A stretch of DNA of 64,000 bases. It comes from Leptotrichia sp. oral taxon 498 (GTDB lineage Bacteria; Fusobacteriota; Fusobacteriia; Fusobacteriales; Leptotrichiaceae). Of this stretch, positions 14,875 to 20,156 are shown one piece after another. The position numbers and the translations under genes are program-made. The DNA lies in assembly GCF_002240055.1 (NCBI RefSeq), contig NZ_CP016753.1, positions 1,488,001 to 1,552,000 on the forward strand, in the 5' to 3' direction. Below the pieces are notes generated by a model, which saw only the letters and a list, made by a program, of their open reading frames with translations, did not search any database and had not been told where the DNA came from. Numbering within the stretch: position 1 is the first letter of the stretch; each line of letters opens with the position of its first letter.

Positions 14875-15585
14875 TTAAAGCGATATTGCGGTTTCAAGTG
14901 CGACTTTTATCATATCGTTAAATGTTGTCTGTCTTTCCTCAGCACTGGTAACTTCGTGAGTTATAAACGAATCACTTATTGTGAGTATTGTTAGTGCGTT
15001 TGCTCCCAATTTTGCAGCGGTTGTGTAAAGTTGTGCAGTTTCCATTTCTACACACAACACTCCAAATTTTGCCCATTTTTTCCAAGCGTTAGGGTCATCT
15101 CCATAAAAAGTGTCACTTGTAAATACATTTCCAGCTTTTACATTAAGCCCTTTTTGTTTTGCAATTTCATACGCTTTAAAAAGCATTTCGGAATTTGCAG
15201 TTGGTGCGTAATCTGCTCCGTTAAATCTAAGTCTATTGATAGCTGAATCAGTTGAAGCCGACATGGCAAGTACGACATCTCTCACTTTTACATCTTTTTG
15301 ATAAGACCCCGCTGTTCCAACTCTGATTAAGTTTTTCACTCCAAATTCAGAAATAAGTTCGTGCAAGTAAATTCCAATTGAAGGAACTCCCATTCCAGTC
15401 CCTTGAACTGAGATTTTTTTCCCTTTATAAGTTCCAGTAAATCCCAACATTCCACGAACATTGTTATATTGAACAGCATTTTCTAAAAAAGTTTCTGCAA
15501 TATATTTTGCCCTAAGTGGATCTCCTGGTAGTAATATAGTTTGTGCAATATCTCCTTTATTTGCCCCAATATGTGGTGTAGCCAT
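14875..15585 (-). CDS. deoD: Purine-nucleoside phosphorylase, DeoD type
   Basis: A 236-residue hexameric-type purine nucleoside phosphorylase that converts purine (deoxy)nucleosides and phosphate to base and (deoxy)ribose 1-phosphate. The family start [20 protein letters not shown], the phosphate site [19 protein letters not shown] and the substrate segment [10 protein letters not shown], then ISDSFITHE (catalytic Asp), are all present. AGGAGGT precedes the ATG. The mRNA has a leader of about 320 bases with strong predicted pairing. It fits the nucleoside importer and purine genes nearby. Confidence 0.96.
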
Positions 15586-15907
15586 TTTTACCTCCTAAAT
15601 TTTTTATATCTATTAAAGTAGTATGTCTCTGTATTTTACAATATTTGGATTTAAAAATCAAATTATTTATTTTATTCTAGTATTTTTTTAATTTCTTGAT
15701 TTTTTCACTATAAAAATAATCGTTTCCCTGTGACAAGTCAATTTATGCTTTTTTTCTTTGAATTAATCTTTTTTGATGCCATAGTAAAAAAAATGGAAAT
15801 GTTTCCCAATTTATCACAGATGCTTTCAAAGCCAGATTTTAAATTATCGTCCAATTTAAAAGCATAAGTTGATTTTCCTATTTTTCATCACTTTTATATA
15901 ATAATAT
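15586..15907 (-). promoter_or_regulatory. Long structured 5' leader of deoD (candidate attenuator)
   Basis: There is no ORF of note. Arms at 15735-15752 and 15858-15876 can form a near-perfect 18-bp stem, the inner CTGTGA/TCACAG arms (15728-15733 with 15814-15819) can pair, and a terminator-like hairpin lies at 15786-15808. I could not match a known riboswitch consensus. Confidence 0.45.
15786..15808 (-). terminator. Terminator-like hairpin inside the deoD leader
   Basis: Read on the minus strand, TGGGAA and TTTCCA arms (with one G-U pair) enclose a 3-base loop and are followed by eight T residues. It lies about 100 bases after the predicted start of transcription and 200 bases before deoD. 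The stem is short, so it would be weak. Confidence 0.4.
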
Positions 15908-15913
15908 ATAATA

Positions 15914-15941
15914 ATTATACTATAAAAGTTATGAAAATCAA
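15914..15941 (-). promoter_or_regulatory. Promoter for deoD operon
   Basis: On the minus strand, TTGATT (15941-15936), 16-base spacer, perfect TATAAT (15919-15914). Confidence 0.6.
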
Positions 15942-16025
15942 ATTTTTTTAAATAAGTTATTTGACAAAATAAACTTTTAATTAAAGAAATAAAAAAATAA
16001 TCAGATTCTCTAAAGTTTTTTTTTC

Positions 16026-16054
16026 TTGAAAAATACCAAAATTTTTGTTATACT
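16026..16054 (+). promoter_or_regulatory. Promoter for the purine operon leader
   Basis: TTGAAA (16026-16031), 17-base spacer, TATACT (16049-16054). It lies 290 bases before purL and diverges from the deoD promoter 85 bases away. Confidence 0.65.
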
Positions 16055-16160
16055 TTTTATATATAAGTTTTTTTGCAAAAAAAGAAATCCATAATAATTT
16101 TTATCCAAAAATTTTTATCTTTGGTAAAATACTTAAAATTAGTTTTATTTGGAGGAAAAG

Positions 16161-16301
16161 ATGAAAAATAATTTTTTTATCAAAAGGGCAACAACTAAGA
16201 TAAATTTTATTGTCAGACAAATTATTACATTGTCTACTTTGTTATGGAGAAAATATATACTAAAATCTGAGCATTTTTGTTTGCTTGGATTTTTTTTGTA
16301 A
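16161..16301 (+). CDS. 46-residue leader ORF ahead of purL
   Basis: An ATG with a very strong site (TTGGAGGAAAAG) opens MKNNFFIKRATTKINF and runs 46 codons to a TAA at 16299-16301. The last third overlaps a terminator hairpin (16262-16297), so its translation could influence whether the hairpin forms. It ends 42 bases before purL. The peptide is basic and partly hydrophobic and matches no family I know. It may be a leader peptide or a decayed gene. Confidence 0.5.
   Translation: MKNNFFIKRATTKINFIVRQIITLSTLLWRKYILKSEHFCLLGFFL
16262..16297 (+). terminator. Intrinsic terminator in the purL leader (attenuator candidate)
   Basis: AAAATCTGAGCA (16262-16273) pairs over 12 bp (two G-U) with TGCTTGGATTTT (16282-16293) and runs into eight T residues. 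It stands between the promoter and purL with no gene boundary to serve other than the leader ORF, which is the geometry of an attenuator. Confidence 0.65.
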
Positions 16302-16343
16302 AAAAATTTTAAAAATTGTATTTAAACAAAAGGAGAGAAAAAA

Positions 16344-19300
16344 ATGAATTACAGAATCTTTGTTGAAAAAAAAGAAGATTTTAGAGTGGAAGCACAAAAT
16401 TTATTTAGTGATTTAAAAGAAAATATCGGACTTGCTGGACTTTTGGATGTGAGAGTTTTAAACATTTATGATATTTTTAATTTAGGTAAAAATGATTTGC
16501 AAAAATTAGAAAAAACTGTATTTTCAGAAATAAATATTGACAATGTTTACAAATCATTGGAAGAGAGTTTAGGGGCGCATAAAAATAAAAATTCAAAAGA
16601 AGTGTACTTTTCTGTTGAATTTTTGCCAGGGCAATACGATCAAAGGGCAGATTCTGCAATTCAATGTATAAATTTACTGATTGACCAAGATAATAACATC
16701 AATGTAAAAAGTGGAAAATTAATAGTTTTATATGGCAACATTTCTTCAGAAGAGTTAAATAAAATAAAAAAACATTGTATAAATAATGTAGAAGCCAGAG
16801 AAAAAAATTTAGATATCTTGTCTGAAAATGTTGAATTACCAAATAAAGATAAAGTCATTGTTTATGATGGATTTATCAAAAAAAACAAAGAAGAAATTGT
16901 TAAAATGAGAAATGATTTAGAATTAGCAATGACTGCAAAAGACTTACTGTTTATTCAAGAATATTTTAAAAATGAAGAAAAGAGAAATCCGACAGAAACT
17001 GAAATAAGAGTGCTTGACACTTACTGGTCAGACCACTGTAGACATACAACTTTTGAAACAATTATTGATGATATAAAAGTTGAGAATAAAGTTTACAGAG
17101 ATTTGTTTAATAAAGCAATAAATGAATATGTTGAAAGTAGAAAATATGTTTATGAGGAAAGAGAAGCTAAAAGACCGATGACTTTAATGGATTTGGCGAC
17201 TGTTTTTGGGAAAGAGCAGAGAAAAAATGGGTCACTTCCAGATTTAGAAGTTTCTGATGAAATTAATGCTTGTTCAATTTACATTGATGTTCCTGTGGAA
17301 AGAATTAATGAAGATGGAAAAGCAGAAGTAACTGAAGAAAAATGGATTTTACAATTTAAAAATGAAACTCATAACCATCCTACAGAAATTGAACCATTTG
17401 GAGGAGCTGCAACTTGTATTGGGGGAGCAATTAGAGACCCGTTATCAGGAAGAACTTTCATTTATCAAGCGGTTAGAATAAGTGGAGCTGGGGATCCAAC
17501 TGAAAGAATTGAAGATACGATAAAAGGTAAATTACCTCAAAAAGTTATTACAAAAACTGCTGCACATGGATTTTCATCTTATGGAAACCAAATTGGACTT
17601 GCGACAACTCATGTAAATGAAATTTATGATGAAGGTTATAAAGCGAAAAGAATGGAATTGGGACTTGTTGTAGGAGCTGCACCAGCTGAAAATATTATTC
17701 GTGAAAAACCTGAAGCGGGAGATATCGTAGTACTTTTAGGTGGAAGAACAGGAAGAGATGGAATTGGTGGAGCTACTGGCTCGTCTAAAGAACATACTAC
17801 AGAATCATCAGAAAAATCAAGTGCTGAAGTTCAAAAAGGAAATGCAGTTACTGAAAGAAAAATCCAAAGATTATTTAGAAATAAAAATGTTACGACATTG
17901 ATTAAAAAATGTAATGATTTTGGAGCTGGAGGAGTTTCAGTTGCGATTGGAGAATTGGCTGATGGACTGGTAATTGACTTGAATGAAATTAGAGTTAAAT
18001 ATATTGGACTTACTGGAACTGAATTGGCGATTTCTGAATCACAGGAAAGAATGGCTGTTGTAATTAGAAAAGAAGATTTAGATAAATTCGTTGAATATGC
18101 GACTGAAGAAAACTTGGAGGCTTACAAAGTTGCTGAAATCAATGATTCTAACAGATTGGTTATGACTTACAATGGAGAAACAATTGTTGACATTTCAAGA
18201 GATTTTTTGAATACAAATGGAGCGTCTTCAAATATCAATATTGAAATTGAAAATTCTGATAAATTGGTGTTGGATAGAAAAATTGCTGGAAATACATTTA
18301 AAGAAAAATTTGTTAATAACTTGAAAGACTTGAATGTAGCTTCTCAAAGAGGATTGGTTGAAACTTTTGATTCGACAATTGGAGCAAGTACAGTATTAAT
18401 GCCGTTTGGTGGGAAATATCAATTGACACCAGCTGAAGTTTCCGTGCAAAAAGTATCGGTAATGAACGCTGAAACAGATGTTGCATCAATGGTTGGATAT
18501 GGATACAATCCTTACATTGCAAAACAAGTTCCATTCCACGGAGGAGCTTATGCGGTAATTGAATCTTTAGCTAAAGTTGTGGCAGCTGGAGGAAATTACA
18601 AAAATGTAAGATTTACATTCCAAGAATATTTTGAAAGATTAGGAAATGAGGCTAAAAAATGGGGAAGACCATTATCAGCGTTATTAGGAGCGTTACACAT
18701 TCAAAAATCTTTTGGATTGTCGTCAATTGGTGGAAAGGACTCAATGAGTGGAACATTTAATGATATTTCAGTTCCGCCAACATTAGTTTCGTTTGCTGTA
18801 AGTGTTGTAAATGCTGAAGATGTTGTTTCGAGTGAATTTAAAAAAGCAGGAGATAATATTTACTTGATTACGACTAAATTAGATGAAAATGACTTGCCAG
18901 ACTTGAAAGAATTGAAAGAAAACTTTGATTTCATCGAAAAAAATATTAAAGATAAGAAAATTGTTGCGTCAGTAGCTGTTAAAAATGGTGGAATTGCTGA
19001 AAGCATAGCAAAAATGACATTTGGTAACAAGTTAGGTGTAAATGTAAACTTTGCAGAAAATGCAGAAAATGAATGGTTTAAAGTTAATTATGGAGCATTT
19101 ATAATTGAAACTCCTGAAAAGATTGATTATAAAAATGCTACATTGTTAGGAAAAGTTACTGAAGAAGCGAAAATTGTTATAAATAATGACACAGTGATGG
19201 ATTTGGATGAATTGATTGCTGAATGGGAAAAACCGCTTGAAAAAGTGTTCCCAACTAAAAAAGAAATTAAAAATAAAAAAGTTTCTTGCGGATTGATTTA

Positions 19301-20156
19301 TGAAAAATTGAAGAGAATTGAGCATGAAAATGTGATAAGCAATATCGCAAATAATTATGCAAAACCAAGAGTATTTATACCAGTATTTCCTGGAACAAAC
19401 TCAGAATATGACTTGGAGAGAGCTTTTAACCGAGAAGGAGGACTATCAAAAATTGGAGTGTTCAATAACTTGACACATAAAAATATTTTGAATTCAATAG
19501 ATACTTTTGTTAAAGAGATAAATAATTCTCAAATATTGATGTTGCCTGGTGGATTTAGTGCGGGAGATGAACCAGATGGATCGGCGAAATTTATGGTAGC
19601 TGTGTTAAAAAATAAAAAAGTTAAAGAAGCGGTGGAAAATTTACTGAAGAGAGACGGGTTGATTTTAGGAATTTGTAATGGATTCCAAGCGTTGATTAAA
19701 TCAGGATTACTGCCATATGGAGAAATCAGAGAATTAAATGAAGATTCGCCAACATTAACATTTAATACAATAGGAAAACATATGTCTAAAATCGTTCAAA
19801 CTCAACTTATGACAAATAATTCGCCTTGGTTATCAGATATGGAAGTAGGAGATATTCATTCTGTGGCGATTTCTCACGGGGAAGGAAGACTTGTTATAAC
19901 TGAGAATGAGTACATTAAATTGTTTGAAAATAACCAGATTGCAACAAAATATGTGGATTTGAATGGAAAAGTTACAATGGATTCGCAATTTAATCCAAAT
20001 GGTTCTTATTACGCAATTGAAGGAATGTTAGCTTATAATGGTAGAATCTTTGGTAAAATGGGACATTCTGAAAGAAAAGGAAAGAATGTTTACAAAAATA
20101 TTTATGGAAATAAAGAGCAGAATATTTTTAGAAATGGAATTAAATTTTTTAAATAG
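16344..20156 (+). CDS. purL: Phosphoribosylformylglycinamidine synthase, single-chain
   Basis: A 1270-residue FGAM synthase for the fourth step of IMP synthesis (FGAR + Gln + ATP). It is the single-chain form with a shortened N-terminus seen in Clostridia-like groups. The ATP/FGAR domains show YWSDHCRHTTF, FKNETHNHPTEIEPFGGAATC and GGRTGRDGIGGATGSS. The C-terminal class I glutamine amidotransferase (about residues 1010-1270) has GICNGFQAL (nucleophile Cys) and SHGEGRL (His). AGGAGAG precedes the ATG. No separate purQ or purS is needed or present. It is the first gene of the operon and sits behind the leader attenuator. Confidence 0.97.
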   Translation: MNYRIFVEKKEDFRVEAQNLFSDLKENIGLAGLLDVRVLNIYDIFNLGKNDLQKLEKTVFSEINIDNVYKSLEESLGAHKNKNSKEVYFSVEFLPGQYDQRADSAIQCINLLIDQDNNINVKSGKLIVLYGNISSEELNKIKKHCINNVEAREKNLDILSENVELPNKDKVIVYDGFIKKNKEEIVKMRNDLELAMTAKDLLFIQEYFKNEEKRNPTETEIRVLDTYWSDHCRHTTFETIIDDIKVENKVYRDLFNKAINEYVESRKYVYEEREAKRPMTLMDLATVFGKEQRKNGSLPDLEVSDEINACSIYIDVPVERINEDGKAEVTEEKWILQFKNETHNHPTEIEPFGGAATCIGGAIRDPLSGRTFIYQAVRISGAGDPTERIEDTIKGKLPQKVITKTAAHGFSSYGNQIGLATTHVNEIYDEGYKAKRMELGLVVGAAPAENIIREKPEAGDIVVLLGGRTGRDGIGGATGSSKEHTTESSEKSSAEVQKGNAVTERKIQRLFRNKNVTTLIKKCNDFGAGGVSVAIGELADGLVIDLNEIRVKYIGLTGTELAISESQERMAVVIRKEDLDKFVEYATEENLEAYKVAEINDSNRLVMTYNGETIVDISRDFLNTNGASSNINIEIENSDKLVLDRKIAGNTFKEKFVNNLKDLNVASQRGLVETFDSTIGASTVLMPFGGKYQLTPAEVSVQKVSVMNAETDVASMVGYGYNPYIAKQVPFHGGAYAVIESLAKVVAAGGNYKNVRFTFQEYFERLGNEAKKWGRPLSALLGALHIQKSFGLSSIGGKDSMSGTFNDISVPPTLVSFAVSVVNAEDVVSSEFKKAGDNIYLITTKLDENDLPDLKELKENFDFIEKNIKDKKIVASVAVKNGGIAESIAKMTFGNKLGVNVNFAENAENEWFKVNYGAFIIETPEKIDYKNATLLGKVTEEAKIVINNDTVMDLDELIAEWEKPLEKVFPTKKEIKNKKVSCGLIYEKLKRIEHENVISNIANNYAKPRVFIPVFPGTNSEYDLERAFNREGGLSKIGVFNNLTHKNILNSIDTFVKEINNSQILMLPGGFSAGDEPDGSAKFMVAVLKNKKVKEAVENLLKRDGLILGICNGFQALIKSGLLPYGEIRELNEDSPTLTFNTIGKHMSKIVQTQLMTNNSPWLSDMEVGDIHSVAISHGEGRLVITENEYIKLFENNQIATKYVDLNGKVTMDSQFNPNGSYYAIEGMLAYNGRIFGKMGHSERKGKNVYKNIYGNKEQNIFRNGIKFFK

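Follow-up and report, generated by a model that had tools for sequence, protein, structure and literature searches.

A conserved leader ORF running into an intrinsic terminator before purL in Leptotrichia: a candidate translation-coupled attenuator of purine synthesis genes

INTRODUCTION

Bacterial purine synthesis is usually controlled by PurR proteins and riboswitches, and we know of no described ribosome-dependent attenuator of purine synthesis in bacteria. A literature search of partial coverage, without bioRxiv preprints and most subscription papers, returned no title or abstract dealing with attenuation of purine genes by a leader ORF or with the purine leaders of Leptotrichia. In attenuators of the trp/his type, the leader open reading frame (ORF) ends before the competing segments. 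In the pyrBI (pyrL) attenuator of Escherichia coli, whose leader has a U-rich pause tract, the ORF overlaps an intrinsic terminator before a nucleotide-synthesis gene. A closely coupled ribosome prevents this terminator, a principle used for pyrimidines (PMC5021804). A study on the Salmonella mgtCBR leader presents the leader ORFs mgtM and mgtP as tandem attenuators, one of them ATP-responsive through adenines in the ORF (PMC3641672). Tandem guanine-PRPP riboswitches precede de novo purine genes in Firmicutes, according to another report, in whose main text the string "Fusobacter" does not occur (PMC5912903).

The leader before purL in Leptotrichia sp. oral taxon 498 shares with pyrBI a leader ORF, predicted to be translated from its Shine-Dalgarno (SD) sequence and the conservation of its open frame, that overlaps an intrinsic terminator before a nucleotide-synthesis gene. 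It differs in that it would serve purine rather than pyrimidine genes, it has no known NTP-sensitive pause, the Fusobacteriales leader ORF often stands behind a riboswitch, and the Leptotrichiaceae add a conserved inverted repeat inside the ORF. A pause tract rich in purines is lacking in the window ORF, and because the ORF is not purine-rich we class the leader as pyrBI-like in its working rather than as a pyrBI-type NTP sensor. As in the tandem guanine-PRPP riboswitches, de novo purine genes in Fusobacteriales can be preceded by a purine riboswitch and, behind it, another putative control element; that element, however, is an ORF (predicted to be translated) with its own terminator, and no ykkC/PRPP aptamer was found by Rfam in the window. 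The mgtCBR leader differs in genes and sequence, and the purL leader has one ORF; moreover, high ATP turns mgtM-controlled genes on, which is the opposite of what purine genes would need. The trp/his-type attenuators are similar in having a leader ORF, a terminator, and possibly an upstream hairpin, but the purL leader ORF has no run of control codons and extends into the terminator. No run for any one amino acid is shared among the peptides compared, which are K-rich only in genus g17 (our numbering) and some others.

RESULTS

A promoter, a short ORF, and an overlapping terminator precede purL. The window, that is, the whole 64,000-nt stretch that was analyzed, comes from a 2.15-Mb genome assembled as a single contig; its features are collected in Table 1. 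The preliminary description had reported a promoter followed by a 46-codon ORF whose end overlaps a 12-bp terminator hairpin with a T8 run, 42 bases before the first purine gene, and this observation of a promoter, an ORF, and an overlapping terminator before purL is confirmed. The ORF has a strong SD sequence, 5 nt from its ATG (position 16161). Its frame crosses the terminator hairpin, and the TAA (16299-16301) lies 5 nt past the stem and 42 nt before the purL ATG. The overlap and the 12 bp both hold (12 pairs, of which 3 are G-C and 2 are G-U, around an 8-nt loop); the T8 does not, since that run overlaps the stem and just 4 T (16294-16297) are unpaired when the full stem forms. One terminator-like hairpin was found in 15500-16500, compared with 0.1 ± 0.3 in shuffled sequence. 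Across both strands of the window, which hold 31 terminator-like sites and 85 SD-led starts of ORFs of 12 to 79 aa, no other short ORF with an SD sequence has its end at a terminator; this one is followed by a gene.

Table 1. Features of the purL leader, with positions in the window
Feature	Position	Strand	Basis
Sigma-70-type promoter TTGAAA-17-TATACT, with TG 5' of the -10 hexamer	16026..16054	+	Same hexamers and spacing in 17/18 Leptotrichiaceae leaders
SD sequence GGAGG of the leader ORF	16151..16155	+	Sequence read; GGAGG also precedes the ORF in relatives
Leader ORF, 46 codons (46 aa)	16161..16301	+	ORF calling; comparison with relatives; profile A1
In-frame inverted repeat AGACAA-N9-TTGTCT, then ACTTTG (codons R Q ... 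L S T L)	16215..16241	+	Conserved
Intrinsic terminator ("terminator 2"), arms 16262-16273 / 16282-16293, U tract 16294-16297	16262..16297	+	Hairpin search and pairing in relatives
purL (FGAM synthase, 1270 aa), first gene 3' of the leader	16344..20156	+	Pfam AIRS_C, FGAR-AT linker, GATase_5

Between the promoter and a divergent gene at 14875-15585, which we take to encode a purine nucleoside phosphorylase, lies a long AT-rich inverted repeat (15866-15944), perhaps a two-way terminator or a barrier.

The leader is conserved across the genus and beyond. Loss of the hairpin or the ORF in relatives had been named as evidence that would speak against the preliminary description; both are conserved. 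The leader was found in all 12 same-genus relatives examined, so that with the window 13/13 genus genomes have promoter, ORF, and terminator. SD sequence, open frame, and in-ORF motif are likewise retained in all 13, including those in which the leader is distant from purL. Five leaders from four other genera bring the Leptotrichiaceae set to 18. In the relatives the ORF starts with Met-Lys 4 to 5 nt after GGAGG and stays open for 35 to 46 codons, and an ORF with the motif in frame is present in 18/18. The promoter, in the form TTGAAA-17-TATA(C/A)T, was found in every leader except that of G022. The terminator is paired in all 18 (11/12 to 14/14 pairs), and some substitutions leave the pairing intact, for example G-C in place of A-T in G021. 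From the start codon to the terminator, the distance is 101 to 153 nt (101 nt in the window).

A profile (A1) of 15 homologues, searched against 33 genomes, gave one strong match, at the leader, in each of the 13 genus genomes, in G017, and in G019 (E values of 4e-12 to 2e-20, most of these matches being sequences already in the profile); the next-best match had an E value of 0.004. The ORF had no Pfam or NCBIfam match. Split DNA matches had raised the suspicion that it is the remnant of a larger gene; we rejected this because the ORF is about equally short everywhere and the extra DNA lies 3' of the terminator.

In 7/13 genus genomes the leader and purL are at least 450 nt apart. Six of these (G005 and G007 to G011) have about 450 to 810 nt between the ORF end and purL, and within 400 nt before purL in these six we found no consensus promoter of the tested form. 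In the seventh, G012 (leader L045), about 1.65 kb separates an intact leader from purL and holds a 390-aa ORF on the opposite strand, presumably an IS110-like transposase.

Leptotrichia lacks the purine riboswitch that precedes the same ORF in sister genera. The preliminary description had found no purine riboswitch consensus, and this holds well beyond the leader. No aptamer in the purL leader exceeded the gathering score of the purine riboswitch family RF00167 (37 bits), no Rfam family reached threshold in the window, and region 15580-16400 gave only four weak matches to unrelated RNA families (E values of 0.18 to 9.1). RF00167 is likewise absent from the whole source genome and from all 13 genus genomes. 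With leader, window, and genome negative, we rejected a riboswitch or other known RNA in the window leader. Across the order, RF00167 was found in 77/96 genomes, and 6 genomes outside the genus also have none. In five leaders (L022 to L026), from five genomes of four other Leptotrichiaceae genera, a purine riboswitch scoring 58 to 70 bits lies 5' of the same ORF, and in several of these a terminator-like repeat with a T run could be read between the aptamer and the SD sequence. Judged by this distribution of matches, Leptotrichia has lost the riboswitch, and the ORF and terminator have outlived it. The position of the ORF behind a purine riboswitch in relatives makes the leader look like an additional gate on purine synthesis, one operated by the ribosome.

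In the last 230 bases before purL in G023 (L079), the SD sequence of the leader ORF follows directly on the P1 strand of the riboswitch, with no terminator between them, an arrangement in which the ligand, once bound, might govern how far the leader ORF is translated.

The same order of elements recurs in other Fusobacteriales genera. Eight more genera have this layout, four before purL (g2, g3, g16, and g19) and four before a PurE-like gene (g14, g17, g21, and g22). The series comprises a riboswitch (recognized by eye in some of the eight), usually a first terminator, an SD sequence, a short ORF, a second terminator that contains or touches the stop codon, and the first gene. The leader peptides are unrelated in sequence between genera. 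A single rule, an SD-led ORF ending at terminator 2, was passed by 39 of 53 chosen purL or purE leaders (18 Leptotrichiaceae leaders that carry this family's ORF, 14 upstream regions of purL from elsewhere, and 21 leaders in which a riboswitch precedes a PurE-like gene); this is no frequency for the order, because possession of the ORF was the criterion for including the 18. Species within one genus are not independent. Among the failures, G000, G006, and G012, from the window's clade, miss by 1 nt, the frame running through the hairpin to a stop 5 nt past the stem; in G075 the ORF, by reading, ends about 11 nt past the stem; and G074 and G076 have the ORF, but terminator 2 was not matched or was below threshold. 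The three looser leaders among these failures are those of g14. No such ORF was found in the other 8 of the 53 (G027, G080, G025, G031, G079, G058, G087, and G061).

The same rule was passed by 1 of 19 control riboswitch leaders of other genes (L160), a count that was the same under a tighter SD rule (L159 had no gene called), and, among the 24 purL upstream regions left over, by L092 alone, which has a 21-codon ORF. The layout is therefore not general in the order; before purL it is lacking in g9, g15, g20, g23, g27, and others, and in 7/96 genomes no match to PurL turned up. Of the purE-type leaders, 6/21 pass the tighter SD rule, the difference being due to GTG starts and variant SD sequences. 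The chance of an ORF staying open to the terminator, estimated with shuffled ORFs, was 0.015 to 0.44 (below 0.1 in 31 of the 39 and at least 0.1 in 8), values that are somewhat optimistic per leader because each ORF is the best among several SD-led candidates. Recurrence of the layout before purE and purL with unrelated peptides favors a role for the position of the ribosome over a ligand-sensing peptide.

The control leader that passed (L160, in G087) has a purine riboswitch, then an SD-led ORF of 47 codons whose end lies in a terminator, and then a gene that we take to be glutamine-synthetase-like. In L131, L143, L145, L147, and similar g17 leaders, a GACCC-type segment (UUGACCC...GGGGAGUC) lies upstream and might base-pair with the SD sequence of the leader ORF, and in these Fusobacterium-like genomes translation of the leader ORF may itself be controlled. 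The terminator 2 loops of g14, g16, g17, g19, and g22 also invite comparison: many share an (A/T)AGTGT(A/G)CCC-like string closing a small inner hairpin, a likeness beyond what ordinary terminators need.

An inverted repeat is kept in frame inside the Leptotrichiaceae ORF. The leader ORF of this family contains AGACAA-N9-TTGTCTACTTTG. Its strict form matched exactly once per genome in the 13 genus genomes and in G021 and nowhere in the other 46 genomes searched; a backward control pattern also had no match. A collection-wide scan, which may omit records near the window, returned 3 Leptotrichiaceae records and 37 scattered matches in other taxa, which we take for chance. The motif is in frame 0 in all 18 leaders, though its distance from the ATG differs (54, 57, 63, or 69 nt), and two leaders with one codon fewer inside it retain the repeat. 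In register, 105/106 of the hairpin pairs form, compared with 37 to 52 of 106 when the arms are slid; we call this conservation rather than covariation, because G-U in place of A-U is the sole change that preserves pairing. A TCT codon is constant in 18/18 leaders, although nine window genes use TCT for 21% of their Ser codons, which hints at importance of the RNA itself. A short peptide core, RQ...LSTL, is shared within the Leptotrichiaceae only. The constant motif and this core suggest something more specific than coupling in this family, and the repeat may pause or synchronize the polymerase or the ribosome.

An antiterminator formed by TTGTCTACTTTG and the 5' arm of the terminator looked promising by eye; we dropped it, as the pairing-energy profile gives a better partner elsewhere. 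That partner is AGACAA with the segment just 5' of it, which has the best mean energy with the 5' arm (about -5.5 kcal/mol, versus about -2.5 kcal/mol elsewhere); this comparison is post hoc, with per-sequence p values of 0.03 to 0.55. The antiterminator signal is thus suggestive for the AGACAA segment and weak for TTGTCTACTTTG. A DNA operator seems unlikely to us: only one of the two halves is invariant (the 3' half, TTGTCT, in contrast to a variable 5' half), and each genome has a single strict motif.

DISCUSSION

We think it probable, if well short of certain, that the leader attenuates transcription through translation of its ORF, as a coupling attenuator of pyrBI-like design. Transcription would begin after position 16054, and a ribosome would load at the strong SD sequence at 16151 and translate the ORF. 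A ribosome close behind RNA polymerase would have reached the terminator, or its immediate vicinity, by the time the U tract is synthesized; while decoding the final codons or positioned at the stop codon, it would cover or crowd the stem, so that the hairpin would be blocked and purL, the presumed target by position and conservation, would be transcribed with the later genes. If translation were late, slow, or failing, or if the polymerase were ahead, the hairpin would form and transcription would end before purL. At a start-to-terminator distance of 101 to 153 nt this race may be undecided and tunable, most likely through purine-nucleotide-dependent polymerase speed or general translational capacity. 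In relatives with a riboswitch the ORF would act as a second gate behind it; in Leptotrichia, with the riboswitch lost, the ribosome-operated gate would remain. Of the two options in the preliminary description, attenuation by a leader peptide or by a ligand-binding RNA, an attenuator made of leader ORF and terminator is upheld by the comparison, and the interpretation as a whole is partly supported. To that description the comparison adds the riboswitch 5' of the same ORF in related genera, the recurrence of the layout with unrelated peptides, and the in-frame repeat.

Coupling is supported by conservation within the Leptotrichiaceae, where all 18 leaders retain the SD sequence, an uninterrupted frame, the motif in that frame, and terminator pairing, and 17 retain the promoter. 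In E. coli, Li et al. (PMC4824070) found that termination fell from ~90% to <10% when a stop codon 28 bp before a terminator was shifted to 5 bp before it, and that this repression of termination vanished without translation; the first ribosome is cited there as catching the polymerase within 100 to 200 nt. According to the same study, a terminator 30 bp into a frame retained most of its efficiency, and terminators within the first 100 bp were barely affected by translation. The window terminator, which begins 101 nt into its frame, stands close to this zone, and this counts against coupling, as do the 8/53 leaders and 23/24 further purL regions without the ORF; the gap of at least 450 nt in 7/13 genus genomes weakens the link with purL there.

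In a further elaboration, several Fusobacteriales lineages would have a two-input gate on their de novo purine operons, in which a riboswitch reads free purine base and a leader-ORF attenuator then reads the ATP/GTP supply by way of the polymerase-ribosome race, as a counterpart of pyrBI for purines; Leptotrichia would keep the second input alone, with the in-ORF hairpin as synchronizer. We regard this as possible but doubtful. A purine-rich ORF would be expected if polymerase speed at low ATP/GTP were the signal, and the window ORF is not purine-rich (clade relatives, 0.57 to 0.60; coding sequence, about 0.60). Purine-rich leader ORFs occur only in g17 (10/11 leaders at 0.68 to 0.77; coding sequence, 0.60 to 0.64) and g22 (0.71), and a general purine-rich pause tract was rejected, since it holds for these two only.

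The features peculiar to the Leptotrichiaceae also fit a specific stall, in which the RQ...LSTL peptide or the AGACAA/TTGTCT hairpin would halt the ribosome (or the polymerase) upon one purine-related signal, and the halted ribosome would free an upstream segment to pair with the terminator 5' arm or would hold the terminator open. The motif that is unique in each genome and in frame in all 18 leaders, the TCT codon that is constant despite its usage in window genes, and the AGACAA segment as best mean partner of the 5' arm all speak for such a mechanism. However, the peptide is unrelated in other genera that share the layout, the 5'-arm pairing is post hoc with the spread of p values given above, and the hairpin changes are just A-U to G-U. 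The caveat of the preliminary description that the peptide has no obvious stall motif stands, and to our knowledge it contains no known one. We consider a specific stall unlikely, though it is the alternative that we weigh most heavily.

A gene for an independent small protein with its own ordinary terminator could also lie beside purL by history, purL being transcribed by read-through or from elsewhere. The strong SD sequence, the ordinary-looking terminator at the ORF end, the single profile locus per genus genome, and the long gap to purL in seven of them are what such a gene would look like. Yet the ORF lies beside purL or purE wherever it is seen, with unrelated peptides in other genera, it matches no Pfam or NCBIfam family, and in six long-gap genomes the 400 nt before purL contain no consensus promoter of the form that was tested, so that we hold this to be improbable. 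Less probable still, and in our estimate quite unlikely, is a nonfunctional relic of a lost riboswitch leader: although none of the 13 genus genomes retains the riboswitch and in seven of them the leader has become separated from purL, the promoter, SD sequence, open frame, motif, and paired terminator are kept in all 13, even where the two are separated.

A leader in which a riboswitch is followed by a gate worked by coupled translation, together with a genus that keeps the gate but not the riboswitch, amounts to a natural deletion experiment. Comparing Leptotrichia with its sister genera could reveal what a coupling attenuator adds to ligand sensing, and would test whether transcription and translation in Fusobacteria are coupled tightly enough for gene regulation.
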